Assembly (NCBI RefSeq): GCF_964048965.1
Contig: NZ_OZ040189.1
Coordinates: 1,550,001 to 1,614,000 of the forward strand
Reading direction: 5' to 3'
Origin: Tenacibaculum sp. 190130A14a
GTDB taxonomy: Bacteria; Bacteroidota; Bacteroidia; Flavobacteriales; Flavobacteriaceae
DNA length: 64,000 nucleotides
A program made the position numbers and the translations under genes. Below, piece by piece: positions 12,366-49,829 of the stretch (its first letter is position 1; every line of letters begins with the position of its first letter). Below the pieces are notes generated by a model. That model was not told the DNA's origin. It did not search any database and was given only the letters and a program-made list of their open reading frames with translations.

Positions 12366-12398
12366 AAAAAAGGTTCAAATCATATGATTTGAACCTTT
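12366..12398 (-). terminator. Original terminator of tRNA-Met, displaced by the insertion
   Basis: A perfect 13-bp stem (AAAGGTTCAAATC / GATTTGAACCTTT) with a T run on the minus strand. It touches attL. In the uninterrupted chromosome it would lie directly after the leftward tRNA-Met 3' end now at 49812, 37 kb away. This supports the direction and precision of the integration. Confidence 0.75.
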
Positions 12399-12417
12399 GT
12401 AGCGAAGGCGGGAGTTG
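12398..12417. repeat. attL core (20-bp direct repeat)
   Basis: TGTAGCGAAGGCGGGAGTTG is identical to 49810-49829, which covers the T-arm 3' half, acceptor strand and discriminator of tRNA-Met. Identity ends exactly at both sides (next bases T versus A). Confidence 0.93.
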
Positions 12418-12495
12418 TTAATTCCCGTTTATGTTTTCGTGTATATTGATAATCAAATAGTTACATTCTTTGATTTGTTGGTTATTACATTGGTT

Positions 12496-12513
12496 TGACG
12501 CGATTTTGACACG
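12496..12513 (+). promoter_or_regulatory. attL arm-type repeats
   Basis: Two copies of TGACRCG (12496-12502, 12507-12513) exactly 11 bp apart, within TTTTGACACGCT. The same pair and spacing recurs at attR (49737 and 49748), in the same orientation. These are probably integrase or excisionase arm sites. Confidence 0.65.
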
Positions 12514-12625
12514 CTCCAATTCTTAATTTCTTTAGCATATATAATAGGTTCAGCGTTTTCAGAACTCAAAGAACACTCTAAAAACAGCAGTTTTTCACTT
12601 ATTTTACAAAAACTAATACTACTAC

Positions 12626-12716
12626 TATCACTTTATTATCATAAAAGTATCACTTTTTTATCATTTGCGACAAACGTCCACAAATTAAATTCATTCATTA
12701 TCATACATTTGTGATA
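12626..12716 (+). promoter_or_regulatory. TATCAC/T operator array upstream of the response regulator
   Basis: TATCA(C/T) starts at 12626, 12637, 12648 and 12659: four copies with exact 11-bp period. An inverted pair follows, TATCAT (12699) and GTGATA (12711), 20 bp before the ATG. The same hexamer with the same period forms the lysogeny operator at 16930-16957, so one regulator probably binds both. The stretch 12514-12625 shows nothing else. Confidence 0.7.
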
Positions 12717-12735
12717 TAATAGTTTAAAAAGAAAA

Positions 12736-13383
12736 ATGAAAGTGTACCTGGTAGATGACCATCCAATAGTAATTGATGGTTATAAAGCCCTTCTTAAAGC
12801 TCATGGTATAAATGTCGTCGGATTCTCAACTACAGGTCAGGATTTAATTGATTGGTTAGAAAATAACTTCTGCGACATTCTGATTCTTGATTTGCAGATG
12901 CCTTATTTTTCTGGTTTAGATGTTCTAAAATATTTAAATGAGAAGAATAGCAGAGTAAAAGTTATTATAGTTACAAGCTATGGAGATGCAGCTATAATTC
13001 AAAAAGTCATTAACCTTGGAGCGAGAGGGTATATATTAAAAGATGAAGCAAGTGATTGCATTGTAAAAGCAATTAGAGATGTCAATAACGGAAAGACTTA
13101 CTTTTCTGAATATGTTCGTGACGCAATAATTGATTTGCAACTAGAAACTTCAGAAGAGGTATTAATTACAGATGTACTTTCTAAGAAGGAAACGGAAGTA
13201 TTAAAATTTTTAATTGAAGGTTTTGATACTGATGCTATTTGTGAAGAGATGGAAATCAAACCTACAACTCTTAGAAGTTACAAAGAGCGCATTCGTAAAA
13301 ACTTAGGTGTAAATAATAATATTCAAATGGCTTTAGTTGCTGTAAAGCATAAAGCACAGTTATTTTTAAAGAAAAAATCTTAG
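12736..13383 (+). CDS. NarL/LuxR-type response regulator (orphan)
   Basis: 215 residues. The receiver domain has the acidic pair DD (7-8), phospho-acceptor Asp in DILILDLQMP (about 54), the switch Thr/Ser in VTSYGD, and Lys in ILKDEA. The C-terminal LuxR-type helix-turn-helix starts at LSKKETEVLKFLIEG. No kinase gene is adjacent. It lies next to attL under the TATCAC array, so it may link host signalling to the prophage switch; that link is inference. Confidence 0.9.
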   Translation: MKVYLVDDHPIVIDGYKALLKAHGINVVGFSTTGQDLIDWLENNFCDILILDLQMPYFSGLDVLKYLNEKNSRVKVIIVTSYGDAAIIQKVINLGARGYILKDEASDCIVKAIRDVNNGKTYFSEYVRDAIIDLQLETSEEVLITDVLSKKETEVLKFLIEGFDTDAICEEMEIKPTTLRSYKERIRKNLGVNNNIQMALVAVKHKAQLFLKKKS

Positions 13384-13443
13384 TAATATAACGAAGCTAA
13401 TTATCGTATTTTTAAAGTTTTAAATATTTAAACTATTATAAAT

Positions 13444-13626
13444 ATGAAAACTTTTACGAAAGTATTAGCAGTTGTTATGATTTTAGGGTTTGTTTCTTGT
13501 ACAGATAATACAGAAGAAACAGAAATTCAATTAAATGAACAACAAGAATTATTCGGAATCAACAAAAATGACTCAACAACTCCAGGAAGTGACGGGGGTG
13601 AAGACCCTGACAACGGAGAAGAATAA
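13444..13626 (+). CDS. Small lipoprotein
   Basis: 60 residues. Signal peptide with lipobox GFVSC (Cys19), then a short acidic, Gly/Asp/Glu-rich tail. It would be a surface-exposed or periplasmic lipopeptide of about 41 residues. Small lipoproteins of this kind often follow regulators in Flavobacteria; no function is known. Its 3' end overlaps the next gene in another frame. Confidence 0.6.
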   Translation: MKTFTKVLAVVMILGFVSCTDNTEETEIQLNEQQELFGINKNDSTTPGSDGGEDPDNGEE

Positions 13627-16506: not shown

Positions 16507-16878
16507 TTAAATCTCTCTATTCTTTATAGCTTCATCGAGTTTTTCTTCTATAACCTTAAAGAAGGCATCTTTAAAAGTTTCAAACTCTTTTTGCAGTTTA
16601 GTAATCTTACTGTCCATTCCTAGCATACTGAGCTCATTTGAGATTTGCTCTGTAGTTTTTTGATTGGACTCAGGTGTAATTATCATTTCACCTTTATCCA
16701 TTAGCAACCAATATATATTTAAATCACTAAAGTTTTCTAATATTGTTCCTAGTTTATCTGAAGTTATTGATCCTTTTGAATCTAAATAGCCATTGCTGAA
16801 ACCACAAATCCTAGTGAATTTAGTTTTTGTAATCCCTTTGTTTTCAATGTATTGGAGTAGTTTTTCTTTATGGGTCAT
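16507..16878 (-). CDS. Lysogeny repressor (HTH, CI-like)
   Basis: 123 residues. An N-terminal XRE-type helix-turn-helix (KLLQYIENKGITKTKF, then GFSNGYLD and SDKLGTILENFSDLN) is the pattern of Bacteroidetes phage repressors. The C-terminal part is a coiled-coil helix that probably dimerises it. It heads a leftward operon with the RelA/SpoT gene and faces an early gene across a 110-bp region full of repeats. Confidence 0.82.
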   Translation of the reverse strand: MTHKEKLLQYIENKGITKTKFTRICGFSNGYLDSKGSITSDKLGTILENFSDLNIYWLLMDKGEMIITPESNQKTTEQISNELSMLGMDSKITKLQKEFETFKDAFFKVIEEKLDEAIKNREI

Positions 16879-17644: not shown

Positions 17645-20485
17645 ATGCAGCCAACTATAAAAGACTTAAAAGACAAAATTTTTGATGTAACCAATGGAGG
17701 TTTAGATATTATAGTTTCATTATATCCACAAGTTAATGAACGATCTCATTTTAAAATAAGAGAAGGGGAGAAGACGGCCAGTTCATCTTTGAAAAAATTA
17801 GATGATGGTATATATATCTTAAAGGATTGGGGACAATCAGAAAAAGCTAAAAATGCAATTCAATTATATGCTGACTTTCACGGATTAGAATTTGTCCAGG
17901 CATTACTACAATTAGCAAAGAACTATCAAATTCCAACATCAAACCAATCACAAGTTAATAATGCTAGTTTTAAAAGTATCGATTTAAGTGCATGGGATAA
18001 AGACCAAGAGTTTGATGATAATAACTTTTGTTTTGAAACCAAAGATTTTACCGAGTTCGAATTAAGTACTTTAGGTCCATTTGTAGATGATAAAACATGT
18101 AATAAATACAATCTATTCTCGCTATCCTGGTATGCAGTAAAAAAGGAAGGTAAAATCAAAATAGTAGAGTCAACAGATACCTACCCAATATTTATCTTTT
18201 GCTTCACCAATAATAAGAGTAAATTCTATAAAATCTTACAACCAAAATGCACTGATAAACAGTATAGGTTCTTTTGGAAAGGCAAAAAGTCTATTGATTT
18301 TGTTGGTGGATTAAAAGCTTTGGAATCTGAGTTTAGTAAAAGAAAAGCCCAATATGAAATTGAGCTACAAGATGAATCTAAATCAGCTAAGGCAAAATTA
18401 GAAAAGATAGATAAGGTCTTTTTATGTTCAGGAGAACGTGATGCATTAAATATGGCAAGCTTAGGGTATTTTGTTCTTTGGTTAAATTCTGAAACAGCAG
18501 AACTAACTACGGAACAATTAAAGAGAATTTACAATTGTTCGGATGAGTTATATAATATTCCTGATTTAGACGAAACGGGTAAGCGAGAAGGCTTTTCTAG
18601 AGCTTTAAAGTATTTAGATATCAAGACTATTTGGTTACCTAATTATTTAAGGAATAGAAGAGATTGGCGTGGGAATCCACGAAAGGATCTTTGTGATTTT
18701 TTTGAGTTGAATAAGAATCAAAAGGTAAAGAGTGTAGCCAAGAAAGTTAAAACCATGATAAAGACTACATATCCTATGAGGTTTTGGGATATGGCTGTAA
18801 ATGATAAAGGAAGAACCACCTATACTTATAACAATGTACATGCTTTGAACTTTCTTTATCGAAATGGTTTTTGCAGGCTAAATGTAGAGGAAGATAAAGA
18901 TGGATTTAAGTTTGTTTATGTAAACGAGCATATTGTAAAGGAGATTAAATCTATTGAAGTTAAGGATTTCGTTTTTGATTTTCTTGAAAAAAGAAACATA
19001 GAAACGGCTATTCGAAATATGATGTACAATACTACTCGTTTAAGTGATAATCAAATTGCCGCTTTACCTAGAGTTGATTTAGATTTTAAGAGTTTTGATC
19101 AAACTTTTCAATTGTTCTATTTTTCAAATCAGTTTTGGAAAATAACCAAAGAAGGGATTACTCCTTATACTAAGAATACGCACAATAAATATGTTTGGAG
19201 GCAGCAAATTATAGATCAAAAGGTAGATAAATTATATGCCAAGAAAATTGACAATCGGTCTATAAAACTAGAACACAACTTTTTTGATATAAAGAAAGTA
19301 GAGGAGAACTACACTATTGAAGTGAAAGAAGAGAATTGTGAGTTCCTTAATTTTCTCATCAATATTAGTCGAATTCACTGGAGAAAAGAGTTAGAAGAAG
19401 GATTTAAAAATGAAGAAGAAAAGCAGGATTATTGGAAGAAAAACTTATTTAATATTTCAGGTGATAAGTTAGATCAAGAGGAGAAGTTAGAGCAACAAGC
19501 ACACTTGGTGAATAAACTTTTTACAATTGGTTATTTACTACATGGATACAAACAAAGTAGCAAAGCATGGGCGGTATATGCTATTGAGAATGAGGTTGTT
19601 GATGATAATGAAAGTCATGGTGGTAGCGGTAAATCTTTATTTCTGAAAGCACTCCAAATAATCCTTGATCAAAAGTACATTGAAGCAAGGAATAACCGTA
19701 TTTGGGAAGATAAACATTTATTTGAAGGAGTAACGAAACATACGGGTTACGTGCTGTTTGATGATGCTAATAAAGAGTTTAAATTCAATAACCTTTATAG
19801 TTCCATCACAGGACCAATGAATGTTAACCCGAAAAACAATCAACCCTATACAATTCCTTTTAATGATGCTCCTAAAATTGCTATCTCGAGTAATTACTCT
19901 TTAAGAGAAGCAGACCCATCAACTACGAGACGTATTTTATTTACTGCAGTAAGTGATTACTATCATGCAGAAAGTGAAATTCATCCAATAAAACGAGATC
20001 CTAAAGATGATTTTGGACATGAACTATTTAGACATTGGGATGATGATCAGTTTAATAAAGTATTCAATCTTTTTGCTCAATGTGTTCAATTTTACTTAAG
20101 TGTTGATGAAAAGATTAATCCACCAATGAACAAAATTCGTTTAAGAAATCTTCAGGCAGAAATGGGAGGAACCTTTATCGATTGGGCGGATGATTATTTG
20201 AATAACCATTTAGATATAGAGTTTAATAAGAATGCTGCTTTGGAAGATATAAAATCTAAGAAGCAAGCATTAAGAAATATTACTTCAACCAAGTTTGTAA
20301 AGAAAATTAAAGCTTGGTGTGAGTTTAATGGACATTTATTTATGCCAAAGGCTAAAACGGATAGTGCCGGGAGAATTCAGAAGAAAAATGAAACAGGTAA
20401 GCGAGAAGATTTCCTTTTCATTGAAAGAAAAGAAGGAGTTGTAGATATCTCTGCGGGTGGTGAACCAGAAGAACTTTTCACTTAA
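17645..20485 (+). CDS. Toprim primase - SF3 (D5-like) helicase replication protein
   Basis: 946 residues. The N-terminal part ends in a Toprim domain: Glu in CSGERDAL (about 265) and the DxD in NIPDLDETG (about 306). The C-terminal part is a superfamily 3 AAA+ helicase: Walker A GGSGKSLF (about 659), Walker B YVLFDDANKEF (about 700), sensor Asn in AISSNY (about 750), and an arginine-rich STTRRILF. Such fusions prime and unwind viral or plasmid DNA at an origin. It is the main replication gene of the element. The downstream gene starts 11 bp after its stop. Confidence 0.88.
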   Translation: MQPTIKDLKDKIFDVTNGGLDIIVSLYPQVNERSHFKIREGEKTASSSLKKLDDGIYILKDWGQSEKAKNAIQLYADFHGLEFVQALLQLAKNYQIPTSNQSQVNNASFKSIDLSAWDKDQEFDDNNFCFETKDFTEFELSTLGPFVDDKTCNKYNLFSLSWYAVKKEGKIKIVESTDTYPIFIFCFTNNKSKFYKILQPKCTDKQYRFFWKGKKSIDFVGGLKALESEFSKRKAQYEIELQDESKSAKAKLEKIDKVFLCSGERDALNMASLGYFVLWLNSETAELTTEQLKRIYNCSDELYNIPDLDETGKREGFSRALKYLDIKTIWLPNYLRNRRDWRGNPRKDLCDFFELNKNQKVKSVAKKVKTMIKTTYPMRFWDMAVNDKGRTTYTYNNVHALNFLYRNGFCRLNVEEDKDGFKFVYVNEHIVKEIKSIEVKDFVFDFLEKRNIETAIRNMMYNTTRLSDNQIAALPRVDLDFKSFDQTFQLFYFSNQFWKITKEGITPYTKNTHNKYVWRQQIIDQKVDKLYAKKIDNRSIKLEHNFFDIKKVEENYTIEVKEENCEFLNFLINISRIHWRKELEEGFKNEEEKQDYWKKNLFNISGDKLDQEEKLEQQAHLVNKLFTIGYLLHGYKQSSKAWAVYAIENEVVDDNESHGGSGKSLFLKALQIILDQKYIEARNNRIWEDKHLFEGVTKHTGYVLFDDANKEFKFNNLYSSITGPMNVNPKNNQPYTIPFNDAPKIAISSNYSLREADPSTTRRILFTAVSDYYHAESEIHPIKRDPKDDFGHELFRHWDDDQFNKVFNLFAQCVQFYLSVDEKINPPMNKIRLRNLQAEMGGTFIDWADDYLNNHLDIEFNKNAALEDIKSKKQALRNITSTKFVKKIKAWCEFNGHLFMPKAKTDSAGRIQKKNETGKREDFLFIERKEGVVDISAGGEPEELFT

Positions 20486-33270: not shown

Positions 33271-33582
33271 ATGCAAATAATTGACCTACTAGAATCTTAC
33301 GGAATCAAAATTGGTCTTTTAATCACAGGTACTTTATCTGGATTAATTGGAACTAAAATACAAGAAAAAACAGGCTTCTTTAACTACATGTTTGGAGCTT
33401 TTTGTGGAGCTTCATGCTCAACTTACTTAACCCCAATGTTGGTAGATTATTTAAACCTATCCCAGAGCTCTTCTTATGGAGTAGGTTTTTTAATAGGTCT
33501 GGTCTCAATGAATTTAGCGAGTAGATTTATTGAAATCAGTAAAGATTTACAATTCATAAAAAGATTACTAACAAAGCAATGA
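33271..33582 (+). CDS. Holin
   Basis: 103 residues with three hydrophobic segments (IGLLITGTLSGLIGTKI; YMFGAFCGASCSTYLTPML; YGVGFLIGLVSMNLASRF) and a basic C-terminus, directly after the lysozyme gene. Size, topology and position are those of a phage holin. It overlaps the next gene by 4 bp. Confidence 0.75.
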   Translation: MQIIDLLESYGIKIGLLITGTLSGLIGTKIQEKTGFFNYMFGAFCGASCSTYLTPMLVDYLNLSQSSSYGVGFLIGLVSMNLASRFIEISKDLQFIKRLLTKQ

Positions 33583-34172
33583 AAGAGATATTAAAATACA
33601 TATTCGTATGCTATATACTAGTACTAATATTTCTAAACTTAAAGGAATGTAGTAATAGAGAAGAACCAATTGATTTAAAAGTTACTACTCAAAAAAAAGT
33701 AGTTAATCGTAAGGACAGTCTTGTAGTTGTTTTTGATACAATTTATCAAACTAAAAAGATTATGGTTTTCGATACCATTACAAATAAGATTATTCAAAAT
33801 CGAATAGTTCCTGTTAATGATCACGAAGTAACCAGGGAAGTTTTTCAAACCAATGATACAATTGAGCTATCAAACGCGAAAGTTGTTTCTTCAATCATTG
33901 CTGAAGGCAGGGTTTTACAACAAGATTTTAAAGTAACTACTGCAGATTCTATTATCAATCATTTCATTGAAAAAACAATCTATAAAGAGCGTAATAAACT
34001 CTTTTTAAATGTATCCCCAACAATTGGGTTTAACGGAGTTTTTACAGGTGGTGAATTAAGTATTGATTATACAATTAAAGATAAAATTAGATTAGGAGTA
34101 GGTGTTGGCGTTTTACAGGATATCCAAACCAAACCATATATAAAATTCAGTGTAGGAGTACCATTAAATTAA
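33579..34172 (+). CDS. Spanin-like protein (inner-membrane anchor, C-terminal strands)
   Basis: 197 residues. An N-terminal membrane helix (YIFVCYILVLIFLNL) is followed by a periplasmic stretch with repeated DTI/DSL turns and a C-terminal set of amphipathic strands (LFLNVSPTIGFNGVFTGGEL ... YIKFSVGVPLN) resembling outer-membrane barrel strands. One protein reaching from inner to outer membrane would act as a unimolecular spanin. That role is inferred from position after the holin. Confidence 0.6.
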   Translation: MKEILKYIFVCYILVLIFLNLKECSNREEPIDLKVTTQKKVVNRKDSLVVVFDTIYQTKKIMVFDTITNKIIQNRIVPVNDHEVTREVFQTNDTIELSNAKVVSSIIAEGRVLQQDFKVTTADSIINHFIEKTIYKERNKLFLNVSPTIGFNGVFTGGELSIDYTIKDKIRLGVGVGVLQDIQTKPYIKFSVGVPLN

Positions 34173-36306: not shown

Positions 36307-36309
36307 AAT

Positions 36310-38939: not shown

Positions 38940-40778
38940 ATGAGGAAAAAAATTAACATGTATTTTAGTGCTATTCTTTTTGTACTAGCATTCATCACAA
39001 GTTGTGATAAAGATGAAGAAATAATGCCTGCAGTTTTTTCAATCACTCCTGTAGAAAAAGACTTTGGTATAATTGAAGTAGAAAAATCTACAAACTATTC
39101 ATTTGAAATTACAAATGAAGGTGAAGCCGTATTAGAAATTAAAGAGTATGCTATTATAGGAACTAATGCATCTGATTTTTCTATAAATGCAGTAGCTGTT
39201 AATATCGAGAAAAACGATTCATACGATTTTGAGCTTACTTTTGCTCCATTGACAATTGGTATAAAAGAGGCTGTTTTAGAAATAACAACTAATGTTGGTG
39301 TAAAAAATATAGCCTTAAATGGAGAAGGAATTGCCAAGCCTATCCCTGTAATTCAATTCAGCGAGTCTCCTGTTAATTTTGGAAATGTTTTAATTGAGCA
39401 AAACTTATCTAAAAATGTTACAATTAGTAATATTGGAAATGCAGATTTAGAAATTACTAGTGCTAACATTTCGAGTGGTTCAACAGTTTTTTCGATTACT
39501 GGATCTCCAAGTTCACTTATAAAAACAATCCCTTCTGGAGACTCATATACTTTTGAAGTTAAATTTACTCCAAACTCTTTGGGAGCCGCTTCAGGTATTC
39601 TAAGGTTGGTTAACAATTCTAACGCCAGTGAAATCAATTTAGAAATGAATGGTATAGGGATAGTACCTGCTCTACCAGAAATTAATCTGAGTGAAACAGG
39701 TTTAAATTTTGGTAATGTGAACATTGGTAGTTCAAGTAGTGATTTAACTTTTGATATTCAAAATAACGGGCAAGGAAACCTAGAAGTTAGTAATATAAAT
39801 TTAAGTGGGGCTAACTCGAGTGATTTTACCTTGGTTGGCGTATCATATCCAATTACAATATTACCTAATAACTCATATACAGTCACTGTTAGATTCACCC
39901 CACAATCTGAAGGACGAAAGTATGGAAGAGTTAATATTGTAAGTAACGATCCAACTAAACCAAATTATGCTTTAATAATTGAGGGCAATGGTTTATCAAC
40001 AACAAGTAATATTGTTAACATTCCAGATTCTAATTTTAAAGCGGCATTAGTGGCTAATTCTTCCATTAATACTAATGGGGATTCTGAAATCCAAATATCT
40101 GAAGCTCAGTCTTATAGCGGTGTTGTTCGTGTTGATGGTTTAACTATTTCAGATTTAACAGGTTTAGAAGAGTTTGTGAATATTTCCGAGTTTCACGCAA
40201 TGAACAATTCCTTAACAAGTATAGATTTAAGCCAAAATACAGCAATTACTAGATTGTCTTTAACTAATAATGATTTAACTTCTCTTGATCTTTCAACAAA
40301 TATTATCCTTAAGACGATTTTAATTCAAAACAACAATATTAGTTCGATAGATTTAACAAATCATTCTAGTTTAGTTAATTTTCAATGTGGAAACAATAAT
40401 ATTTCAAACTTAGTGTTGCCGACAACAGCTAATGGGCTAAGAACTTTATATTTGGAGCAAAATAAAATTAGTACGTTAGATGTTTCTATGTATTCAGATT
40501 TAAGAACTTTGTCTGTATATAACAATAATTTAACTAATCTAGATATTTCACCAAACACCAAAATAAGGGCATTACATGTTAGAAATAATAAATTATCAAG
40601 TTTAAATGTAGCTAATGGTAATAATGTAAACTTCATTTATATGGTGGCAGACAGAAACACTGATTTAACTTGTATTCAGCATGATGCTGGATTTGATCCT
40701 TTAAACCCTCCAAATACTGCAGTAAACCAATGGGCCAAACCATCTGGAGCTTCTTGGAGTACTACTGCATGCCCTTAA
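38940..40778 (+). CDS. Lipoprotein with HYDIN-like repeats and leucine-rich repeats
   Basis: 612 residues. Lipobox FITSC after a signal peptide; three choice-of-anchor-D/HYDIN-like beta domains (each with NFGNV or FGIIEV and YTFEVKFTP-type strands, about 30-345); then seven to eight leucine-rich repeats (LTSLDLSTN, ISSIDLTNH, LTNLDISPN). Probably on the cell surface. Lysogenic-conversion cargo by position: separate promoter, downstream of the late operon. Confidence 0.82.
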   Translation: MRKKINMYFSAILFVLAFITSCDKDEEIMPAVFSITPVEKDFGIIEVEKSTNYSFEITNEGEAVLEIKEYAIIGTNASDFSINAVAVNIEKNDSYDFELTFAPLTIGIKEAVLEITTNVGVKNIALNGEGIAKPIPVIQFSESPVNFGNVLIEQNLSKNVTISNIGNADLEITSANISSGSTVFSITGSPSSLIKTIPSGDSYTFEVKFTPNSLGAASGILRLVNNSNASEINLEMNGIGIVPALPEINLSETGLNFGNVNIGSSSSDLTFDIQNNGQGNLEVSNINLSGANSSDFTLVGVSYPITILPNNSYTVTVRFTPQSEGRKYGRVNIVSNDPTKPNYALIIEGNGLSTTSNIVNIPDSNFKAALVANSSINTNGDSEIQISEAQSYSGVVRVDGLTISDLTGLEEFVNISEFHAMNNSLTSIDLSQNTAITRLSLTNNDLTSLDLSTNIILKTILIQNNNISSIDLTNHSSLVNFQCGNNNISNLVLPTTANGLRTLYLEQNKISTLDVSMYSDLRTLSVYNNNLTNLDISPNTKIRALHVRNNKLSSLNVANGNNVNFIYMVADRNTDLTCIQHDAGFDPLNPPNTAVNQWAKPSGASWSTTACP

Positions 40779-40805
40779 TCTATTTATTACCTTGTGTTAA
40801 ATCCT

Positions 40806-40845
40806 GAAGTTGTCTACAACATATAACAGTAGGCAACTTCTTTAA
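40806..40845 (+). terminator. Terminator after the LRR gene
   Basis: GAAGTTG-t-CTAC / GTAG-g-CAACTTC stem with T-rich tail. Confidence 0.65.
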
Positions 40846-40853
40846 TTAAATAT

Positions 40854-42164
40854 GTGACTATGAGACATAATATTATCAAGTTATCTTGTATTATTTTTTT
40901 TGGGATTTTTACTCCTTTTTTTGCCAATGCACAATTTGGAGGTATTATGAAAAAAGTAAAACAAAATGTAGTTGACAAAACAACGAAAAAATATAACTCT
41001 GGGAAAAATACTAATTCATCAAGTAAGCAAGATGAATCGAAGGAGAATGAATTATATTCAGATTCAGAGTATAAACTAGAGTTAGCTAGAAAATACCCAA
41101 ATGATAAACAAAAACAAGAATACTATTACAAAAAGTATAAAGAATTTCAACAAAAAAAACTTAATGAACAAGAAAAATTATTAGCCAATACTAATAAAAA
41201 AGGCAAGGTAGTTAATAATATTCCATCTCCAATTGATAGTGAAGTTCAAGATAAATTTAAAGATAATGAAATCTATATACTTAATGGTGTTAAGTTTAGA
41301 AAGATTCCATCGTATAATGGAAAGTTTTACGATAAATTAGATCTATCAGGATATTATCATTTGTCTCAATATTTTGTAAGATATCCATCAAGTCATTTTG
41401 ATAGAGAACCTGGACGAATTTATGAAGGCTTTTCAATAGAATATAACCCAAATACATATGAATTAAAAGCTTATTTCGATCCAGTTACAAAACGACATGG
41501 AGTGATTCCTAAACAATATAGAGAATCTGCAGATAAAGGTAATATTCAGTTTCAATTTGGAATTGGAGATGGACCAGAATGGACTAATGTTAACGCACTA
41601 TTATTAGAACCGGGTGTATTATTAATAGGGGCAGAAGTTTATTATAAGAATAAAAAAGAAGGACACAAGTGGATGAATAATATAGAACCAAAGCAGTTTG
41701 TCATTGCTTCTAAAGATCCTGCAAAGATTTTAAAGTATTATAGAAACCCAGAGTTAACTTCACAAGTTACCTTCGCTAAATTTGATTCTTTACTTCATGA
41801 TTCAGAAAATTTTTCTTTTTCTAAATTGAAAATGCCATCAAAAGGCAATTTGAATAATAACTTAATTGGTATTGCTACTAAAGGTTTGAACAATTATTAC
41901 AGTAAAACAAGTATGAAAAACCTTAAGCAATACATTACTTCGAACAGATGGTCTACCGTTAAACATAAAATAACAGGAATCCCACAGTATCAATGGGCAG
42001 TTGGTGCAGTCATTCAAAAAAATTCAGATGGACAATGTATGTTGCAACAGTTCATAATTAGAAGGGATTATGAAGGAGGAGGGAAATTCGGAACAGCGTT
42101 TTTTAATGGGATTAGTCGAACAGGAAAAGCTCCATATGGAAGCTATTGTAAATGCATAAATTAA
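40854..42164 (+). CDS. Secreted protein, unknown
   Basis: 436 residues. Signal peptide (about 1-25, ending near ANAQ), a Lys/Ser/Asn-rich low-complexity part, then a globular domain with two late Cys. Not recognised. Cargo region, between two secreted-protein genes. Confidence 0.6.
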   Translation: MTMRHNIIKLSCIIFFGIFTPFFANAQFGGIMKKVKQNVVDKTTKKYNSGKNTNSSSKQDESKENELYSDSEYKLELARKYPNDKQKQEYYYKKYKEFQQKKLNEQEKLLANTNKKGKVVNNIPSPIDSEVQDKFKDNEIYILNGVKFRKIPSYNGKFYDKLDLSGYYHLSQYFVRYPSSHFDREPGRIYEGFSIEYNPNTYELKAYFDPVTKRHGVIPKQYRESADKGNIQFQFGIGDGPEWTNVNALLLEPGVLLIGAEVYYKNKKEGHKWMNNIEPKQFVIASKDPAKILKYYRNPELTSQVTFAKFDSLLHDSENFSFSKLKMPSKGNLNNNLIGIATKGLNNYYSKTSMKNLKQYITSNRWSTVKHKITGIPQYQWAVGAVIQKNSDGQCMLQQFIIRRDYEGGGKFGTAFFNGISRTGKAPYGSYCKCIN

Positions 42165-42193
42165 CTAAAGATAATAAATAAACAAAAAAACAA

Positions 42194-42691
42194 ATGAACA
42201 AATTATATATTGCAGCACTCTTTTTTATAACTATATTTTCCTCTTGCAGTTCAAATGAACAGGATTCATTATCAGAAACCTATAATAATACAATAAGTTT
42301 TGGGCAAGAAGAGTTTGGAATTCAGCAAGTTAATGTTGGGTATGATTTATTTGGTAATATTTCATTGCTATTACACTCTTTAAACAAAAATCAGTTAATT
42401 CAATTACCATCTGGAAGTGGTGCATTTATTGAGTTTGAAGGTATTAAGCAATCACAAATCCATATGGACTCAGATTATTATGTAGAAATTCCAGAGGCGC
42501 ATTATTATTTAGGAGTAGTAAATGGAGATCAGCTTTTGAGGTCAAATGGAATTAACATTAAAAAAGCAGTTGAAGGATATGTGAAAATTATTGAATTATC
42601 AAATGATAATATTAAACTGAGATATTTATATAAGAGATTTGATGGAGTAATGTTCAAAGGGGAGTACAGTGGACCATATACAGAAAAATAA
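42194..42691 (+). CDS. Lipoprotein, unknown
   Basis: 165 residues, lipobox FSSCSS after a short signal peptide, otherwise beta-rich. Not recognised. Starts 29 bp after the previous gene, so probably cotranscribed. Confidence 0.6.
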   Translation: MNKLYIAALFFITIFSSCSSNEQDSLSETYNNTISFGQEEFGIQQVNVGYDLFGNISLLLHSLNKNQLIQLPSGSGAFIEFEGIKQSQIHMDSDYYVEIPEAHYYLGVVNGDQLLRSNGINIKKAVEGYVKIIELSNDNIKLRYLYKRFDGVMFKGEYSGPYTEK

Positions 42692-43041
42692 CATCAACTA
42701 ATGTTTAAAAATTTTATAGTTTTTTTCATGTTATATACGAGTAAATACAACAACATAAATTTTGGATTATTAAATCTTCTTTATTACTTCAAGTATTAAA
42801 AAATTATGTGGGTAATATTTCTCAAATAATGAATTATTTATTTTAGAGCAAAACAGTAACTCAGGTTATTAACTAATTTATATATTTGGTAACTTATTTT
42901 CTAGTATCTGTTTTAACATTATAATTTGATATTAAGTACTACCAGATAAAAATTAGTCGTTATTAAAAATGATTTTAATTATCATTAGCAACTTCTTTTT
43001 GTCAAATTTGTATTAGTACCATAAAGAATATAGTTAAATGA
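42692..43041 (+). other. 350-bp spacer before the sensor kinase
   Basis: No ORF seen. A perf TATATTTG box at 42881-42888 could be a promoter for the kinase gene. Confidence 0.4.
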
Positions 43042-45951
43042 ATGAAAAAGAGTTTACAAACAATTGTTATTCTTATATTGTTCTGTGGTAAAATTTTTTC
43101 CCAAGAACCTTACTACACAAAATTTACATCAGATGATGGATTGGTTGCATTAGCAAATTTCAATGTCGTACAGGATAAGGACAATCTAATTTGGGTTGGT
43201 ACCAAACAAGGGTTGTTTTATTATAATGGGAGAAAATTTATAGAAGTTAAAAATTCGATTTCAACAACTAAAAGTATCTTCAATTTACAAATTGATAATG
43301 AAGGACAAATTTGGTGTTCAACTATTTCAGGACAGATTTATAGAATTGTAAACAAAGAGTTTCATCTTTTTAAAGATTTTTCTAAAAAGTTAAAAGGTGC
43401 TTTTCCTCACTTAATAGTTATGAGGAATTGCGTCTTTTTTCTTTCACAAAAGGAAAGCTACAAAATAAATATAAAAACAGGAGAAGTAAATAAAATAGAT
43501 GGTCAGATAACTAAAATAGTAAAGTCAAATAATAGTTTTTTTTATTACAATCTAAGTGAAAATAATATAATTACTCAGATTTATCAAGATGAAGAAGAAG
43601 TTGTTACGAGAAAAATAAAATGTTACGGAAAGTTTCTTTTAGACAAAGGTAAATTCCAAATGTTCAAGTGGTTCGATGAAATTGTTATTATACCCGACAA
43701 GATGACAATTAAGCCATTCTCAATAGATATTAATACAAGGAAATTGAATCGAATTAAACTACCTAGTAGCTTTAAAAAGCTTCAGGTTTATAATTCTAAG
43801 AATTATCAAGATAATTGGTTATTAACATCAAATGGTATATATAGATCTATCGAGAAAAGAGCAATTAGTGATGCTGAACATATTTTTAAGGGTTTTCATA
43901 TTACAGATGTTTTAAAAGATAATGAGAATAACTTTTGGTTAACCACACTTCAGAATGGTGTATTTGTGGTACCAAATTTAGGAATAAGGAAGAAAAATTT
44001 TTTTGATATAAAAGATGATATAATATCTGTAGAAACTTTACCTGAGAATCATTTATTATTAGGGACACAAAACGGTAAATTAATTGATTTTAATACTCAA
44101 AGTAATAGTTATACTCAAATTGATTTATTAAATCAGCGCCCAATAAATAGAATTAGATATGATAATGTTCTAGGTAGGGCTTATGTAAGTACAAATGGTA
44201 CCAATAGCTACATTTATGATGTAAAAAGTAAAAGAATTAGAGAAGTTGGAGAGCAATTTGCAACGGCCAAAGGATTAGCTCAAATAAGCAAAGATTCATT
44301 AATCTATCTTTCATATCGACATGCTTTGGTATATACTAATCTTACAAAAAATAAGGATCATATTGTACTAGAAAATAAAAGGCCGATTAGTACTTTTTAC
44401 GACTCTATAAATAAACTTATTTATATAACCTATATTGATGGAGCAGTAGTTTATGATAAAAATTTAAATAAAGTTCCTGTAAAGTATAGAAACAAACCTA
44501 TTATTTTATATAAGTATACTCAAACCAATAATGGTAAAATATGGGCAACATCCGGTGATAAGATTTTAGAATTAAAGGCCGAAAAAGTTATTGATAGTTT
44601 AACTTACTCCAAAGGATTGTTAAGGTCACCCTTAAAAGGTTTAATGTCAAGGGAATGTTTTTTGTGGATTGTCACAGCAAAAGGTATACAAAGATATAAT
44701 ACAAACGAGAAAAGTATAAAAACTCTCAATTTGACGGATAAAAATACTATCAAATTCAAACATCCTGAAATTCAAAATGGTTATTTGTGGATACCAGGGA
44801 ATAGTTTTTTATGTAAAATAGATTTGTCAATTTTAGATTCCAAGCAATCAAAAAAAGTACCATTAGCATATATTAGTAATGTGAAAATTGGAGGTAAGGA
44901 AGAAAAATTAAAAACCGAATATGAACTGCCCTATAAAACAAACGATATTACATTTAATTTAAATTTTAATGGATTCTTGGCTAGCAGTAAAAATGTTTTA
45001 GAATATAAACTTTTAGGTTTCAACACCGAGTGGCAAACATCAGAATTAAATGATAATATTGTTAGATATATTGGGATTCCATCCGGAAATTATGAGTTTC
45101 TATATAGAGCCAAAAGTTTAGATGGAAGCATTGGTAAACAGAGTAAGGGAGTTAAAATTATTATCCACAAACCTTTTTGGGAGAATTGGTGGTTTATCGT
45201 GACTGTTTTTATTGTATCATTTTTTATGATTGTAATATATTACAGAATAAAATTAAGATTGAGAGAAAAAGAAGTGGAACGTGAATTAGAAAAAGTGATT
45301 TTAGCTAGTAGAATAAGTAAATTAAAATTAGAGAATCTACGTTCTCAGATGAATCCACATTTTATTTTTAACTCTTTAGGAGCGATTCAAGATTATGTTA
45401 TGAATAATGAGAAGTATTTAGCAAGTGATTATTTAGTTAAGTTTTCTCGTTTAATTAGGATGTATTTAAATCATAGTAGAATTAATGTTATATCTCTGAA
45501 AGAGGAATTAAAATCTTTAGAAATGTATATAGCATTAGAACAATTGAGGTTTGAGAATAAGTTTAACGTTCAATTTTTAATAGATAAAAGTATTAATCAA
45601 AATAAGGTTAAAATTCCTCCATTGTTTTTACAACCATTTGTAGAAAATGCAATAAAACATGGTCTTATTCATAGAAAAGAAGAAGGGAATCTATTGATAT
45701 CAATTACAGAAGATTCTGCAGGTATAATGATTGTGACCATAGATGATGATGGAATAGGGAGAATAAAGTCTTCTAAAATTAATATGAAAAGACAAAATCA
45801 TAAGTCCTTTGCCGTTAACGCAACGAAGGAAAGAGTTTTGCTATATAAGAAGGAAAAGTTGTTTAATATTTCAATAGATTTTATCGATAAAGTAGGAGAA
45901 AATAATGAAGCTATAGGAACAACTGTAATACTTAAAATAAAAAGAATTTAA
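43042..45951 (+). CDS. LytS-type sensor histidine kinase with sensor propeller
   Basis: 969 residues. Signal peptide; two-component-regulator beta-propeller repeats (DNLIWVGTKQGLFYYNG, NFWLTTLQNGVFV); Y_Y_Y domain (about 640-710); one membrane helix (WWFIVTVFIVSFFMIVIYY); His_kinase block LRSQMNPHFIFNSLG with phospho-acceptor His; ATPase block QPFVENAIKHGL. It detects an unknown periplasmic ligand and phosphorylates the regulator starting 3 bp downstream. Similar in plan to the host pair at 51943-55531. Confidence 0.92.
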   Translation: MKKSLQTIVILILFCGKIFSQEPYYTKFTSDDGLVALANFNVVQDKDNLIWVGTKQGLFYYNGRKFIEVKNSISTTKSIFNLQIDNEGQIWCSTISGQIYRIVNKEFHLFKDFSKKLKGAFPHLIVMRNCVFFLSQKESYKINIKTGEVNKIDGQITKIVKSNNSFFYYNLSENNIITQIYQDEEEVVTRKIKCYGKFLLDKGKFQMFKWFDEIVIIPDKMTIKPFSIDINTRKLNRIKLPSSFKKLQVYNSKNYQDNWLLTSNGIYRSIEKRAISDAEHIFKGFHITDVLKDNENNFWLTTLQNGVFVVPNLGIRKKNFFDIKDDIISVETLPENHLLLGTQNGKLIDFNTQSNSYTQIDLLNQRPINRIRYDNVLGRAYVSTNGTNSYIYDVKSKRIREVGEQFATAKGLAQISKDSLIYLSYRHALVYTNLTKNKDHIVLENKRPISTFYDSINKLIYITYIDGAVVYDKNLNKVPVKYRNKPIILYKYTQTNNGKIWATSGDKILELKAEKVIDSLTYSKGLLRSPLKGLMSRECFLWIVTAKGIQRYNTNEKSIKTLNLTDKNTIKFKHPEIQNGYLWIPGNSFLCKIDLSILDSKQSKKVPLAYISNVKIGGKEEKLKTEYELPYKTNDITFNLNFNGFLASSKNVLEYKLLGFNTEWQTSELNDNIVRYIGIPSGNYEFLYRAKSLDGSIGKQSKGVKIIIHKPFWENWWFIVTVFIVSFFMIVIYYRIKLRLREKEVERELEKVILASRISKLKLENLRSQMNPHFIFNSLGAIQDYVMNNEKYLASDYLVKFSRLIRMYLNHSRINVISLKEELKSLEMYIALEQLRFENKFNVQFLIDKSINQNKVKIPPLFLQPFVENAIKHGLIHRKEEGNLLISITEDSAGIMIVTIDDDGIGRIKSSKINMKRQNHKSFAVNATKERVLLYKKEKLFNISIDFIDKVGENNEAIGTTVILKIKRI

Positions 45952-45953
45952 CG

Positions 45954-46703
45954 ATGAAAGTTTTAATAATTGACGATGAAGCAAAAGCACGTAGTTTAAT
46001 GGAAACATTGTTGACACAATTTTTTCCAGAAATTAAAAAAATTGTTAAAGCAGATAATTTATTAAACGGAGTAAAGCAAATAAATAAATATGAACCCGAT
46101 ATTGTTTTTTTAGATATTGAAATGCCTGAGTATTCCGGATTAGAAATTTTAGATTTTATTCCCGCTCCAATTAAGTTTCAATTAATTTTTACAACTGCTT
46201 ATCAACAATATGTAAGAGAAGCATTAAGAATGTCAGCAATAGACTATTTAATAAAACCTATTGATAGAGAAGAGTTAAGAGAAGCTATAAATAAGGCTAA
46301 ATTTAATATTGAAAAAAACAAGGTTTCAGTACAGTTTTCAGAATTGAAAAAGGCCATTCTTTCATTATCATCACATAAAATTGCATTAGAAGTTCCCGGA
46401 GAAATTATTTTTGTTACTCATGAGGAAATATTGTATTTGGAGGCCGATGGAATGTATACCAAGGTGCATCTTGCAAACCATGAAAAGCGACTAATATGTA
46501 AGCCTTTAGGGTATTTTGAAAATCAATTGCTCAATAATAATTTGTTTTTCAGATGTCATAGGTCTTTTTTGATTAATCTACATTATTTAGAAAAGTTTGT
46601 AAAGAAGGATGGTGATTTTCTACTTATGCAAAACCAAATTGCAATTCCAATATCCAAAACAAAAAAGAGTGATTTTTTAAGAATTATAAAAGAAGTCTTT
46701 TAA
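45954..46703 (+). CDS. LytTR response regulator
   Basis: 249 residues. Receiver with phospho-Asp in DIVFLDIEMPEYSGL and Lys in YLIKPIDREE; C-terminal LytTR DNA-binding domain (EILYLEADGMYTKVHL, RCHRSFLINLHYL). Partner of the upstream kinase. Confidence 0.93.
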   Translation: MKVLIIDDEAKARSLMETLLTQFFPEIKKIVKADNLLNGVKQINKYEPDIVFLDIEMPEYSGLEILDFIPAPIKFQLIFTTAYQQYVREALRMSAIDYLIKPIDREELREAINKAKFNIEKNKVSVQFSELKKAILSLSSHKIALEVPGEIIFVTHEEILYLEADGMYTKVHLANHEKRLICKPLGYFENQLLNNNLFFRCHRSFLINLHYLEKFVKKDGDFLLMQNQIAIPISKTKKSDFLRIIKEVF

Positions 46704-46775
46704 ATTATTGTATAGAAGAATATAAAGTTAGAGATGTAACTAACGAAATTTTTATAGACAATAAATAATGATGAT

Positions 46776-47018
46776 TTAAAAAGACAACTTAACCATTTCT
46801 TTTAACAGATCCTCAGGTGTTTGATTACCTGTTAGGTCTGTAAGTTGTTTTTGAACCTTGAAGATGGATATATGATTATCTCTAGATTTGTATTTTTTCA
46901 TTCCATGTATTCTTTCTTCTAAAATGAGAATATTCATATAGCGTGCAAATTGATCAGAATTCAATGCTGGCATTCCTTTTACTTTATTACTGGTTGAAAA
47001 ATAGTTTGTGTATTGCAT
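46776..47018 (-). CDS. Small protein, unknown
   Basis: 80 residues from the ATG at 47018, helical, with EERIHGMKKYKSRDNH. Not recognised. Divergent from the YedK gene. Confidence 0.5.
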   Translation of the reverse strand: MQYTNYFSTSNKVKGMPALNSDQFARYMNILILEERIHGMKKYKSRDNHISIFKVQKQLTDLTGNQTPEDLLKEMVKLSF

Positions 47019-47128
47019 AATGCAAAATTACATCATATATGTAGCGAGTCTTGCTACATATATTAGCATTCGTGCATTTTTATTCTTAAATTTAAAGGAT
47101 AAGATAAATTCTCAAAAGTTTTCTCACT

Positions 47129-47872
47129 ATGTGTTATCATATATCCAACAGGAGAAGAGAAGAAAGGGCACTACAAGACAGATTTGATGCCACTTTTGAA
47201 CATCCTAAAGTATATCAGCCTTATCATCATTTTAATGGTTGGGAGTCTAAGAACTTATATATTATTAGACAAGAAGATCCAGAAAGTATCGATTTTGCTT
47301 CTTGGGGGTTGTTACCCACTGGATATGACTTATCATTAAGAAGCGAGTTTTTAAGAATAACCAATACGTTAAATGCAACTCGTGAAAGACTTTTTGAAAG
47401 CCAATTGTTTAATCAGTTTATTCATTGGCAAAGATGTTTAATTATTGCCGATGGTTTCTATGAACCACATAAGGATCCTGATATAAAAGGTTCGGTTCCA
47501 TTTTATTTTCAATTAAAGAATAAAGAATTATTTGCGTTGGCAGGAGTGTATAGTGTTATTGATGATGGTATTAACCCACTTTATTCTGCAAGTATTATAA
47601 CTACCGAAGCAAATCCATTATTTAAAAAGATTCATAATTCACCTAATAGTAAAGGGAGCTATAGAATGCCCTTAATTCTGAATCCTTCGGACGAATATGA
47701 TTGGTTGCACTCTAATAATGATGAAGCTATAATAAATACATTATTACATACATTTACTAAATCTGAATTTGAAACCTACCCAGTTTCACAAGATATATTT
47801 AAAAGAGTAGATAGTAATCGTCCGGATATCACAAATCGGGTTGATTATCCTGAGTTGAAGATTTCATTTTAA
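47129..47872 (+). CDS. SRAP-domain protein (YedK/HMCES family)
   Basis: 247 residues. It begins MCYH, so Cys2 becomes the N-terminal nucleophile that crosslinks to abasic sites in single-stranded DNA. Later family motifs are seen: NATRERL, RCLIIADGFYEP, FALAGVY. In mobile elements it may protect replicating or invading ssDNA. Located between the cargo genes and the integrase. Confidence 0.9.
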   Translation: MCYHISNRRREERALQDRFDATFEHPKVYQPYHHFNGWESKNLYIIRQEDPESIDFASWGLLPTGYDLSLRSEFLRITNTLNATRERLFESQLFNQFIHWQRCLIIADGFYEPHKDPDIKGSVPFYFQLKNKELFALAGVYSVIDDGINPLYSASIITTEANPLFKKIHNSPNSKGSYRMPLILNPSDEYDWLHSNNDEAIINTLLHTFTKSEFETYPVSQDIFKRVDSNRPDITNRVDYPELKISF

Positions 47873-48510
47873 TTATAGTTTTCTCCGTTGCAAAGTTGTT
47901 TCAGTATTGTTGATTTGCTGTTACAGATGTTGCATTTTTGATTCAACAACTCAGCAACAGAAAAATTATTGATTAAAAAATTACCTATTAATTACTTGAA
48001 TTATTGATTGTTGGAGAACACATTTTTATGGTGACTTTCTATAAGAAAGCAAAATTCTTTGATTCCCCTCAGACCCCTCTTTAAAATTCTCTGCAAGAAA
48101 AATGTGATTCTGTGATTCGGGTATAAAGTCAGGTGTAATAAGGGCTTAGGCTTATTTTATTTTTTGTGATTATTATATTCTTTCACAAAAAAATATTGTG
48201 ATTCACTAAATAGAAAATAGATAAACTTAAAATCACAAAATTTATAAATACCCAATCACAAAATTTAAATAAGCTTAAGTGTTTGTATTTCAATATTTTA
48301 TATCCTAATCACAGAATCACAAAAAATTTGCGGGTTTAAAACAAGAGAGGTTTTCTAGTTACAGACAAAATCGTCCTATTTTACCCAAAAACATCACTGT
48401 ACTTTAGGTTTAATTCAGAAGAGTATAAAGTAATAAAGTTTTACGACGAAACATCCAAGTCAAATAAATTTGTTTTAGTTGGTAGGTAGGAATAATAAAG
48501 TTTTATTTTA
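47873..48510. other. Repeat-rich non-coding region (possible origin or integrase control region)
   Basis: About 640 bp with no credible gene. TGTGATT or its complement occurs about nine times. TGTGATTCTGTGATTC (48103-48118) and AATCACAGAATCACA (48307-48321) form inverted tandem pairs with 8-bp period, and single copies lie at 48165, 48197, 48231 and 48254. The left part (47885-47960) has loose TGTTGC/GCAACA copies. Confidence 0.5.
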
Positions 48511-49686
48511 TTAAAAATTTAAGCTGGCATATTGAATATTACCTACAGCTTTTAATATAGTTTTAGGAATATAAGCTTCTGTTTGAGTAATTGAATGGTG
48601 CCTAGCTTGATTCTTTACATCAATTGTTGGTATTCCTAATTGCAAATAGTTTGTAATACCAGTATCTTTTAATGAGTACCACTGATAGGTGTTACTGAAT
48701 TTAAGTTTTTTTCTTATTCTAGCCCATGTATCAGAAATTCTTTTGGGATCAAGTTGATTAGGACCAGGTTTAAAATTTTCTGAGAAAAGGAAATCTGAAT
48801 TTTTGGCATTTTTGAGATGTTTAGCAAAAGAGTGCATTAATTCTCCAGGAATGGTAACCATTTGAGTTTTTCCGTTTTTGGAAACATAAGAAGGAATATT
48901 AATTATTCCATTTTTTAATATCACATCGTTTACTTTAAGCTTTGTCATTTCTGTTCTTCTTATTAAACAGTAGAAAGCTACTTTACACAGGTGATAATAT
49001 CCTTTGTCGTAATCATATATATGTTTGAATATAATGTCTCTTACTTCTTTTGGAATTATTGTTCTCTTTTTTTCAGATTCCTTAATTTTCTTTATATGGA
49101 TTGTAAAATCAACCGAGAGATATCTTTTTTTTATTAACCATCTATTAAAAACTCCAATAAAACGGAGGTAGTTATTATGAGTAGCAGCAGAATTCTCTCT
49201 TTCATAAAAGATTTCGTCTAAAAAGTCTCTACATAAATCTTCATTAAAACTATTAATGAACAAATGTTCTTTATTAATGGAAATTAGATATTGTTTAAAA
49301 TTATTAATGTAGCTTTTGTAGGCTCTAATGGTATCTTTTCTTACAACTCCTTTTTTTAATTGTTGGTTGTATTTATTCAAAAAGATATCTAAGGTGTCAA
49401 ATAGTTTGGCAAATGACTTTACATTTTTCTCATTAATAAAAGGAGTCCATCCTTTAGGAAGCTTTTCATTAAGCTTTTGAACTATTCTTTTTGCGTACTT
49501 CCTTCTTTCTGTTTTGTTTTTCATCGGTTTAACCCGAATTCTCTTTCTCTTAAGTTGTTTTGATACGTTAATCTCTGAAGGATCAATAGCATAATAAACG
49601 ATTTCCCAAGTTTGGTTTTCTCTTAGTTCTGCTGGAACGTAATCAATAAAAGGAATTAGATTTTTTGGGTTTTGAAGTTTTGACAT
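48511..49686 (-). CDS. int: Tyrosine recombinase integrase
   Basis: 391 residues. An N-terminal basic region, a SAM-like core-binding domain (about 110-200), and a catalytic domain with box I Arg (CLIRRTEM), and the late ARHHSITQTEAYI with nucleophile Tyr. The usual HxxR of box II reads YSLK, a variant. The gene is beside attR and reads away from the tRNA, as expected for an element that integrates there. Confidence 0.92.
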   Translation of the reverse strand: MSKLQNPKNLIPFIDYVPAELRENQTWEIVYYAIDPSEINVSKQLKRKRIRVKPMKNKTERRKYAKRIVQKLNEKLPKGWTPFINEKNVKSFAKLFDTLDIFLNKYNQQLKKGVVRKDTIRAYKSYINNFKQYLISINKEHLFINSFNEDLCRDFLDEIFYERENSAATHNNYLRFIGVFNRWLIKKRYLSVDFTIHIKKIKESEKKRTIIPKEVRDIIFKHIYDYDKGYYHLCKVAFYCLIRRTEMTKLKVNDVILKNGIINIPSYVSKNGKTQMVTIPGELMHSFAKHLKNAKNSDFLFSENFKPGPNQLDPKRISDTWARIRKKLKFSNTYQWYSLKDTGITNYLQLGIPTIDVKNQARHHSITQTEAYIPKTILKAVGNIQYASLNF

Positions 49687-49690
49687 TTTT

Positions 49691-49725
49691 TTTTTACATC
49701 GAGATTGGCATCGAGAATGTAAAAA
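49691..49725. promoter_or_regulatory. Repeats at the integrase start
   Basis: CATCGAGA occurs at 49697 and 49709 (12 bp apart), framed by a 9-bp inverted repeat TTTTTACAT / ATGTAAAAA. Position just before the integrase ATG suggests an operator or excisionase site. Confidence 0.45.
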
Positions 49726-49736
49726 TGGACATCAAA

Positions 49737-49754
49737 TGACACGTTTTTGACACG
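49737..49754 (+). promoter_or_regulatory. attR arm-type repeats
   Basis: TGACACG at 49737 and 49748, 11 bp apart, matching the attL pair at 12496/12507. Confidence 0.65.
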
Positions 49755-49770
49755 CTTTTTTTTATATTTA

Positions 49771-49804
49771 CTTCGGAACCATTGTGGTTATTATGGTTCC
49801 GAAG
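49771..49804 (-). terminator. Element-supplied hairpin after tRNA-Met
   Basis: A perfect 12-bp stem CTTCGGAACCAT / ATGGTTCCGAAG just downstream of the leftward tRNA-Met. It lacks a U run, so it may stop transcription weakly or protect the tRNA 3' end, replacing the displaced terminator. Confidence 0.45.
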
Positions 49805-49809
49805 ATTTC

Positions 49810-49829
49810 TGTAGCGAAGGCGGGAGTTG
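49810..49829. repeat. attR core (20-bp direct repeat)
   Basis: Identical to 12398-12417; lies within the tRNA-Met 3' end, so the tRNA stays intact after integration. Confidence 0.93.

Follow-up and report, generated by a model that had tools for sequence, protein, structure and literature searches.

A putative temperate, tailless virus with a predicted single-jelly-roll capsid protein in Tenacibaculum, and its relatives in other Bacteroidota

This study revealed that a 37.4 kb element in Tenacibaculum sp. 190130A14a is very likely a temperate, tailless, icosahedral double-stranded DNA virus, whose major capsid protein (MCP), encoded at 29051-29653, would form an upright single jelly roll, with a membrane probably lining the shell on the inside. 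Direct repeats of 20 bp flank the element, which is inserted at a tRNA-Met gene, within a 64,000-nucleotide stretch (the window, to which all coordinates refer) of a 3.94 Mb single-contig genome. The virions, the internal membrane and the packaging of DNA are features that we infer.

Structure models were made for two late proteins, c1 and c4. Both were found to be all-beta except for short helices, with one barrel each. The best matches of the c1 model among 989 solved chains were upright single-jelly-roll capsid proteins of tailless, membrane-containing viruses, VIA-align being applied to the better-ranked Foldseek matches. We predict a single upright jelly-roll capsid fold for c1, its uprightness being taken from the matched structures. 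Against a library of viral models, c1 matched the capsids of many unrelated viruses as well as uncharacterised phage proteins. The fold search with c4 returned generic jelly-roll matches, which are not diagnostic; c4 is a probable minor capsid or penton protein. Profile searches of the PDB with c1 and c4 gave nothing significant, and the c1 profile retrieved no SPV1 chain up to an E value of 1. The initial annotation had singled out three adjacent beta-rich proteins of 200, 116 and 89 amino acids (aa) for comparison with jelly-roll capsid folds and had named FLiP as one of the few membrane-containing icosahedral viruses that infect Bacteroidetes. The three genes exist, the models of the first two are all-beta as described, and the comparison yielded a capsid-like fold for c1; FLiP is not the nearest kind, since the predicted c1 fold is a single and not a double jelly roll. 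A double-jelly-roll, FLiP-like capsid was likewise rejected for c4, whose model has one barrel.

The late block (27196-38718) comprises 17 open reading frames (ORFs) on one strand, with a GC content of 33% against 28-29% in the rest of the element. Its conservation was followed in 82 loci found via the c3 gene: 77 from a c3 alignment scan of one genome per GTDB species and five from IMG/VR. The following genes of the block are referred to here.

27196..28521, forward: c3, transglutaminase-like protein with a C-terminal membrane helix at 410 (PF04473, 1.4e-8)
28538..28990, forward: c0, 150-aa protein with a membrane helix at 40, in 71 of 82 loci
29051..29653, forward: c1, 200-aa putative MCP, predicted single upright jelly roll
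29728..30078 (ATG at 29728), forward: c4, 116-aa predicted single jelly-roll protein of eight strands (pLDDT, predicted local distance difference test, 95.5)
30082..30351, forward: 89-aa small protein between c4 and c5
30374..31303, forward: c5, 309-aa protein, coiled coil by eye, in 70 of 82 loci
31306..31491, forward: c6, 61-aa conserved small protein, in 63 of 82 loci
31493..32266, forward: c12, 257-aa protein with an N-terminal membrane helix
32270..32647, forward: c7, 125-aa protein with a CarboxypepD_reg-like domain (PF13715, 4.8e-6, below cut-off) and a C-terminal membrane helix
32647..33207, forward: GH108 endolysin with PG_binding_3 (PF05838, 3e-16; phrog_315, 3.5e-31)
33271..33582, forward: holin (phrog_2359, 1.7e-13)
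33579..34172, forward: c29, 197-aa protein with an N-terminal helix
35851..36306, forward: c8, 151-aa conserved protein, in 49 of 82 loci
36310..38718, forward: c2, ArdC-like zincin fused to a RadA/RecA-type ATPase (PF18818, 7e-36; PF08401, 2.6e-19)

Pfam and PHROGs name five of the 17 late ORFs, namely the transglutaminase-like, GH108, holin, CarboxypepD_reg-like and ArdC-like/ATPase fusion proteins; c0, c1, c4, c5 and c6 had no PHROG match at E 0.01. Three residues of c3 (C111, H145 and D160) are invariant across eight aligned sequences and are read as a putative Cys-His-Asp triad. The slot between c4 and c5 holds a gene of 83-134 aa in 44 of the 45 loci compared, the exception being L038. 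Beyond the lysozyme region, four relatives (L015, L017, L018 and L020) encode proteins of 703-1121 aa that probably act as spikes or receptor-binding fibres; the window element has none of these.

Profile scans with Pfam and PHROGs covered the 17 late ORFs and three other ORFs. No portal, terminase, HK97 capsid, tape measure, tube, baseplate or tail gene was matched in the late ORFs, and two weak matches to PHROGs with a tail or head label (E 0.27 and 0.2) are no better than chance. The lack of portal, large terminase, HK97 capsid, tape measure and tail genes noted initially thus stood up to a scan that could have overturned it. A tailed phage too diverged for portal, terminase and tail profiles is a very improbable alternative. 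Among the relatives, one or two proteins each do match the PHROG families that bear the names tail fibre, lytic tail protein and baseplate hub, and the tailed phage Leef_1 has a related primase-like protein. However, the traced tail-named matches are lysozyme/transglycosylase-like domains (SLT) or long, variable fibre/spike proteins. Moreover, Pfam found no portal, terminase, HK97 capsid, tape measure or tail gene in 161 further proteins from seven relatives (those of at least 90 aa outside the block families), and no tailed-phage match at E 0.01 in the 29 proteins of at least 80 aa on a related 30.3 kb contig. The block proteins are also small, measuring 51-337 aa across the 45 loci compared; the exceptions are c3 and c2, whose domains are of other kinds.

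Another explanation is that the element is defective or a phage satellite, whose jelly rolls would decorate or remodel a capsid supplied by a tailed helper phage. No packaging motor or tail was seen here, and satellites resemble the element in having an integrase, a primase-like gene and cargo. Some jelly-roll proteins serve as cement, and KHP30/KHP40 chains appear in the c1 and c4 comparisons. Nevertheless, we consider this explanation unlikely. The element has its own lysozyme and holin, both of which had been proposed initially and were recovered by profile, and a complete-looking 30.3 kb relative carries the same block. Terminase_6N, the one terminase family searched for genome-wide, was absent from the whole host genome; for 15 related genomes or records the search gave one sub-threshold match and none above the cut-off, whereas 6 of 14 control genomes were positive.

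With regard to packaging of a tailless virus, no FtsK/HerA ATPase was found in Pfam scans of the late ORFs, the relatives and the 30.3 kb contig, and in a motif survey of the loci no block family other than c2 regularly carries a P-loop. The C-terminal domain of c2 exhibits a P-loop lysine and a Walker B aspartate that are invariant in nine aligned sequences. Its profile matched RadA (2e-8), FlaH-like and SRP GTPase chains, and KaiC more weakly, with no FtsK or HerA among the 30 matches listed. On the Persicobacter plasmid pPP10, a stand-alone 174-aa gene annotated as an AAA family ATPase matches the c2 profile. That the RadA-like domain of c2 packages DNA is a guess. We also considered a 203-aa P-loop protein encoded upstream of c3 in 11 loci of one Flavobacterium subgroup (e.g. 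L088:8315-8923), and rejected it as a packaging motor: its nearest PDB matches are AAA+ proteins (1.5e-5), not FtsK/HerA. SPV1 and FLiP are described in passages of PMC8812541 as having no packaging ATPases.

The initial annotation had counted at least six single-helix proteins. By hydropathy, a membrane helix is present in 6 of the 17 late proteins at the looser cut-off, in agreement with that count, but in only 5 at the strict one. The same looser cut-off gives a helix in 6 of 25 late proteins selected from the tailed flavophage Leef_1, so that such a count cannot by itself tell a membrane-containing phage from a tailed one. Across the loci, at the strict cut-off, the helix is frequent in c16 (63/94), c8 (28/50), c3 (42/84), c7 (18/42), c12 (16/38) and c0 (23/71), and hardly ever present in c1 (3/73), c4 (2/69), c5 (1/71) and c6 (0/63). 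Given that the count does not discriminate, the case for an internal membrane under the shell, which we regard as probable, comes mainly from structural kinship. The initial proposal of a tailless membrane virus holds as to the capsid-like fold of c1 and the lack of tail, portal and terminase matches; its membrane is still something that we infer.

The limits of the element and its integration site are as follows.

12398..12417: attL core, 20 bp, identical to 49810-49829
48511..49686, reverse: tyrosine integrase, 391 aa (phrog_1, 1.7e-31; PF00589, 1.4e-13)
49810..49829: attR core, overlapping the 3' end of tRNA-Met
49811..49885, reverse: tRNA-Met, the integration target, found as an empty site in three relatives

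The exact 20-bp repeat TGTAGCGAAGGCGGGAGTTG occurs on the forward strand of the window at 12398 and 49810 only, and the integrase gene sits at the tRNA end; the att cores and integrase initially claimed are thus both present. A search of 40 genomes of the genus detected the right-hand neighbour gene in 39. Among 30 fetched loci of this neighbour (our own included), three (L123, L124 and L150) have an empty site, in which tRNA-Met is directly flanked by the two neighbour genes, one on either side. The element integrates site-specifically at tRNA-Met. A perfect 15-bp inverted repeat (12369-12398), perhaps the terminator of the upstream host gene, directly adjoins attL, and three tRNA-Gly(TCC) genes stand in tandem just beyond the element (10182-10484).

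We propose that, upon induction, the integrase would excise the genome and the primase-helicase would drive its replication. c1 would assemble into hexameric capsomers, with c4, and perhaps the 89-aa protein, at the vertices, and the single-helix proteins c0, c3, c7, c12/c16 and c8 would reside in a membrane vesicle beneath the shell. The membrane-bound, transglutaminase-like c3 may process or crosslink the virion or the cell wall, and the ArdC-like protein may shield incoming DNA. The candidate packaging motor is the RadA-like ATPase domain encoded last in the block; otherwise packaging would be motor-free. Finally, GH108 and the holin would lyse the cell.

The block is widespread rather than the lone find that it had seemed at first. 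Among the 82 loci, c1 is present in 72, c0 in 71, c5 in 70, c4 in 69 and c6 in 63. The order c3-c0-c1-c4-c5-c6 is kept in all 72 c1-bearing loci, of which 62 have all six genes, so the suggested search for the same block in other genomes was successful. An ArdC-like gene occurs in at least 41 of the 82 loci, within flanks limited to 10 kb. The c1-bearing loci cover at least 14 flavobacterial genera (Flavobacterium, Tenacibaculum, Capnocytophaga, Aquimarina, Maribacter, Leeuwenhoekiella, Zunongwangia, Kordia, Algibacter, Cochleicola, Bizionia, Croceivirga, Pustulibacterium and Aurantibacter), some represented by metagenome-assembled genomes, and include type strains. Eight of the ten loci without c1 reach a contig end soon after c3. 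The others are L074 (Tenacibaculum finnmarkense), where c3 has full flanks without c1 or the remaining block, and L040 (IMG/VR 3300028025_005500), with weak matches only. The latter is a 13.4 kb contig with a transglutaminase-like gene and, at both ends, a 219-aa gene that is 95% identical in DNA; it shows no exact terminal repeat and is perhaps a small circular member with strain variation.

In a first protein search, the named relatives of c1 were from Tenacibaculum. Of 299 genomes of the family, 10 (own included) were found to encode c1. A 41-sequence c1 profile then matched 16 of 397 family genomes and 9 of 395 phylum genomes (own included in both), or 15 and 8 after removal of one probably spurious weak match from each: G080 (38 residues, E 7.3e-4) and G554 (E 6.2e-4, with five stop codons interrupting the frame), the latter from the phylum set. 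In the reverse test, the seven phylum genomes that remained after exclusion of our own and G554 all have c3 no more than 3 kb from c1; two of the seven belong to other families.

The block occurs in several genetic forms. The window element and the relatives that carry an integrase are integrated. In Persicobacter (Cytophagales), the block is found on two circular plasmids, CP012854 and CP012856, with c8, c3, c1, c4, c5 and ArdC-like genes; on pPP10, three genes match and c1 was not seen within the 50.0 of 53.2 kb inspected, and c3 also matches two further, larger Persicobacter replicons. The 30.3 kb contig, IMG/VR 3300031224_000003, ends in 127 bases identical to its first 127, giving a unit of 30,340 bp. 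Given that such a terminal repeat is the typical trace left by assemblers on circular molecules, this contig is probably circular and complete. When prolonged by 3 kb, the unit exhibits 39 ORFs of at least 60 aa, all on one strand, and no PF00589 integrase.

The plasmid forms bear on a further explanation, an integrative mobilisable or plasmid-like element in which the block would build something other than a capsid, for instance an adhesin or the coat of a vesicle. Plasmids often carry ArdC-like genes, and the two circular Persicobacter plasmids with the block measure 48.8 and 47.6 kb. However, PLSDB types these plasmids as non-mobilizable, no relaxase or mating apparatus was matched by Pfam in 30 window proteins (a set that leaves out the small early ORFs), the relatives or the 30.3 kb contig, and lysis genes accompany the block. 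We regard this explanation as the least probable of all. As for the block itself, the median ratios of nonsynonymous to synonymous substitution (dN/dS, Nei-Gojobori) of ten block families range from 0.074 to 0.154, based on 4 to 129 non-independent pairs each of moderately related copies (dS 0.05-1.5, identity above 60%). As judged from these sequences, the block is under purifying selection and maintained, not decaying.

The window and 71 of the 72 c1-bearing loci each have a single copy of c1. L039 carries two adjacent paralogues of 243 and 218 aa, which are 31.7% identical. The final c1 protein search returned 59 proteins; 47 of the 67 c1 proteins collected, nearly all metagenomic, score above 200 bits against the 218-aa copy. 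In a midpoint-rooted FastTree tree, both L039 copies fall into one clade, apart from the flavobacterial c1, which fits a duplication inside the L039 lineage. Two more scans yielded no second contig with both copies, so that the pair is known from one contig.

The predicted c1 fold is shared with Portogloboviridae (SPV1), as judged by structure comparison. SPV1 has an archaeal host, whereas the present elements belong to Bacteroidota, measure 30-37 kb and carry integrase, primase-like and lysis genes; they also have a second jelly-roll protein adjoining c1 and no PDB sequence match by profile. SPV1 has no packaging ATPase; the present elements encode a RadA-like domain, and an FtsK-type motor was not found in them. 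The hallmark of Singelaviria in the broad sense, one upright jelly-roll MCP, matches the predicted fold of c1, with its uprightness taken from the matched structures. Helvetiavirae (P23-77, SH1, HHIV-2 and HCIV-1; realm Singelaviria) infect other hosts. They possess two single-jelly-roll MCPs and an FtsK/HerA-type ATPase, whereas the present group has one c1 with the adjacent jelly roll c4 (two c1 paralogues in L039 only) and a late ATPase domain of RadA/RecA type. Because no FtsK-type motor was found and 71 of 72 loci have no second c1, we have not filed the group in Helvetiavirae; it appears to be a new variant of the upright single-jelly-roll virus type.

FLiP and PhiCjT23, lipid-containing Flavobacterium phages, have a double jelly roll and genomes of about 9 kb or less, in contrast to one barrel each in the c1 and c4 models and 30-37 kb here. 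Both phages are tailless and infect the same host family, and FLiP likewise has no packaging ATPase according to passages of PMC8812541. Microviridae-related proviruses of Bacteroidetes (PMC3091885) are tailless and occur in the same phylum. Microviridae have capsids of single jelly rolls, with small circular single-stranded DNA genomes and a much larger capsid protein. Leef_1 (tailed, Helgolandviridae) has a related primase-like protein and a similar genome length, but its annotated portal, neck, tape measure and head maturation protease have no counterparts found in the window element. Two further candidates were rejected as relatives on the basis of parts of their descriptions: the F. columnare myovirus prophage fF4, which has a contractile tail and a terminase (PMC7761591), and the Charybdis elements, which are about 4.3 kb, have a probable archaeal host and encode a double Greek-key protein (PMC12324425).

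No match to c3, the window c1 or three divergent c1 proteins was found in 50,697 phage records, nor did the late-block DNA match phages. Among the top-listed papers from searches of the open-licence PubMed Central literature, none reports upright single-jelly-roll viruses of Bacteroidota as judged by title and abstract start, which is no proof of novelty. The viruses of this type that are named in portions of PMC8812541 and PMC5332951 have haloarchaea, Sulfolobus and Thermus as hosts. The International Committee on Taxonomy of Viruses moved Helvetiavirae into the new realm Singelaviria in 2025, as stated in sections of PMC12451622 and PMC12714852. A survey of Tenacibaculum prophages used PHASTEST, with capsid, tail and portal among the scoring keywords, and the words tailless and non-tailed do not appear in its text as available to us (PMC11672841). 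Prophages of the present kind may escape scans keyed on tail genes.

Our tentative proposal, which may well prove too bold, is that the group forms a new, realm-deep bacterial branch of portoglobovirus grade. It would comprise prophages, plasmids and free circles of Bacteroidota, with members having one and (L039) two capsid genes, so that the step from one to two capsids proposed for the origin of Helvetiavirae would lie within one lineage, and up to about 37 kb would be packaged without an FtsK-type motor. More generally, a widespread temperate group in culturable flavobacteria, including type strains, would provide the Singelaviria-type lineage with tractable bacterial hosts and make the proposed order of one capsid protein, then duplication, then a packaging motor directly testable.

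The early and cargo genes of the window element are listed below.

16507..16878, reverse: 123-aa protein, repressor-like by eye, with homologues in two related elements (about 1e-11)
17645..20485, forward: 946-aa primase-helicase-like protein (phrog_28855, no function given, 1.7e-27)
38940..47872: cargo comprising an LRR/DUF1573 protein, a sensor kinase, a receiver-like regulator, a SRAP protein and other ORFs

The 123-aa protein, which has no Pfam match, may be a repressor, as read by eye from its sequence. The 946-aa protein likewise has no Pfam match; it is labelled a primase on account of its 38.9% identity (over 97%) with a protein that is annotated as primase/TOPRIM in Leef_1, a phage of Polaribacter, and the initial call of a primase-helicase is upheld to this extent. 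A RelA/SpoT-domain protein (15448-16500, reverse; PF04607, 3.4e-26) adjoins the repressor-like gene and might be an alarmone synthetase that the prophage carries as a toxin or for anti-phage defence. Cargo-type genes, this one among them, take up some 9 kb of the right-hand part (38.9-47.9 kb) and 4 kb of the left-hand part. The 37 kb virus gene plan initially described is hence a bounded element of 37.4 kb, part of whose length is cargo. The sensor kinase within the att sites (43042-46703 with its regulator) exhibits propeller, Y_Y_Y and His_kinase (PF06580) domains, and the receiver-like regulator at 45954 clusters with a LuxR-type response regulator at 12736-13383. The SRAP gene adjoins the integrase in one relative. 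The 612-aa protein at 38940-40778 combines DUF1573/ASH-like and LRR domains; an LRR protein was also observed in the late block of the relative L024, and one protein of the 30.3 kb contig has an LRR-family match.

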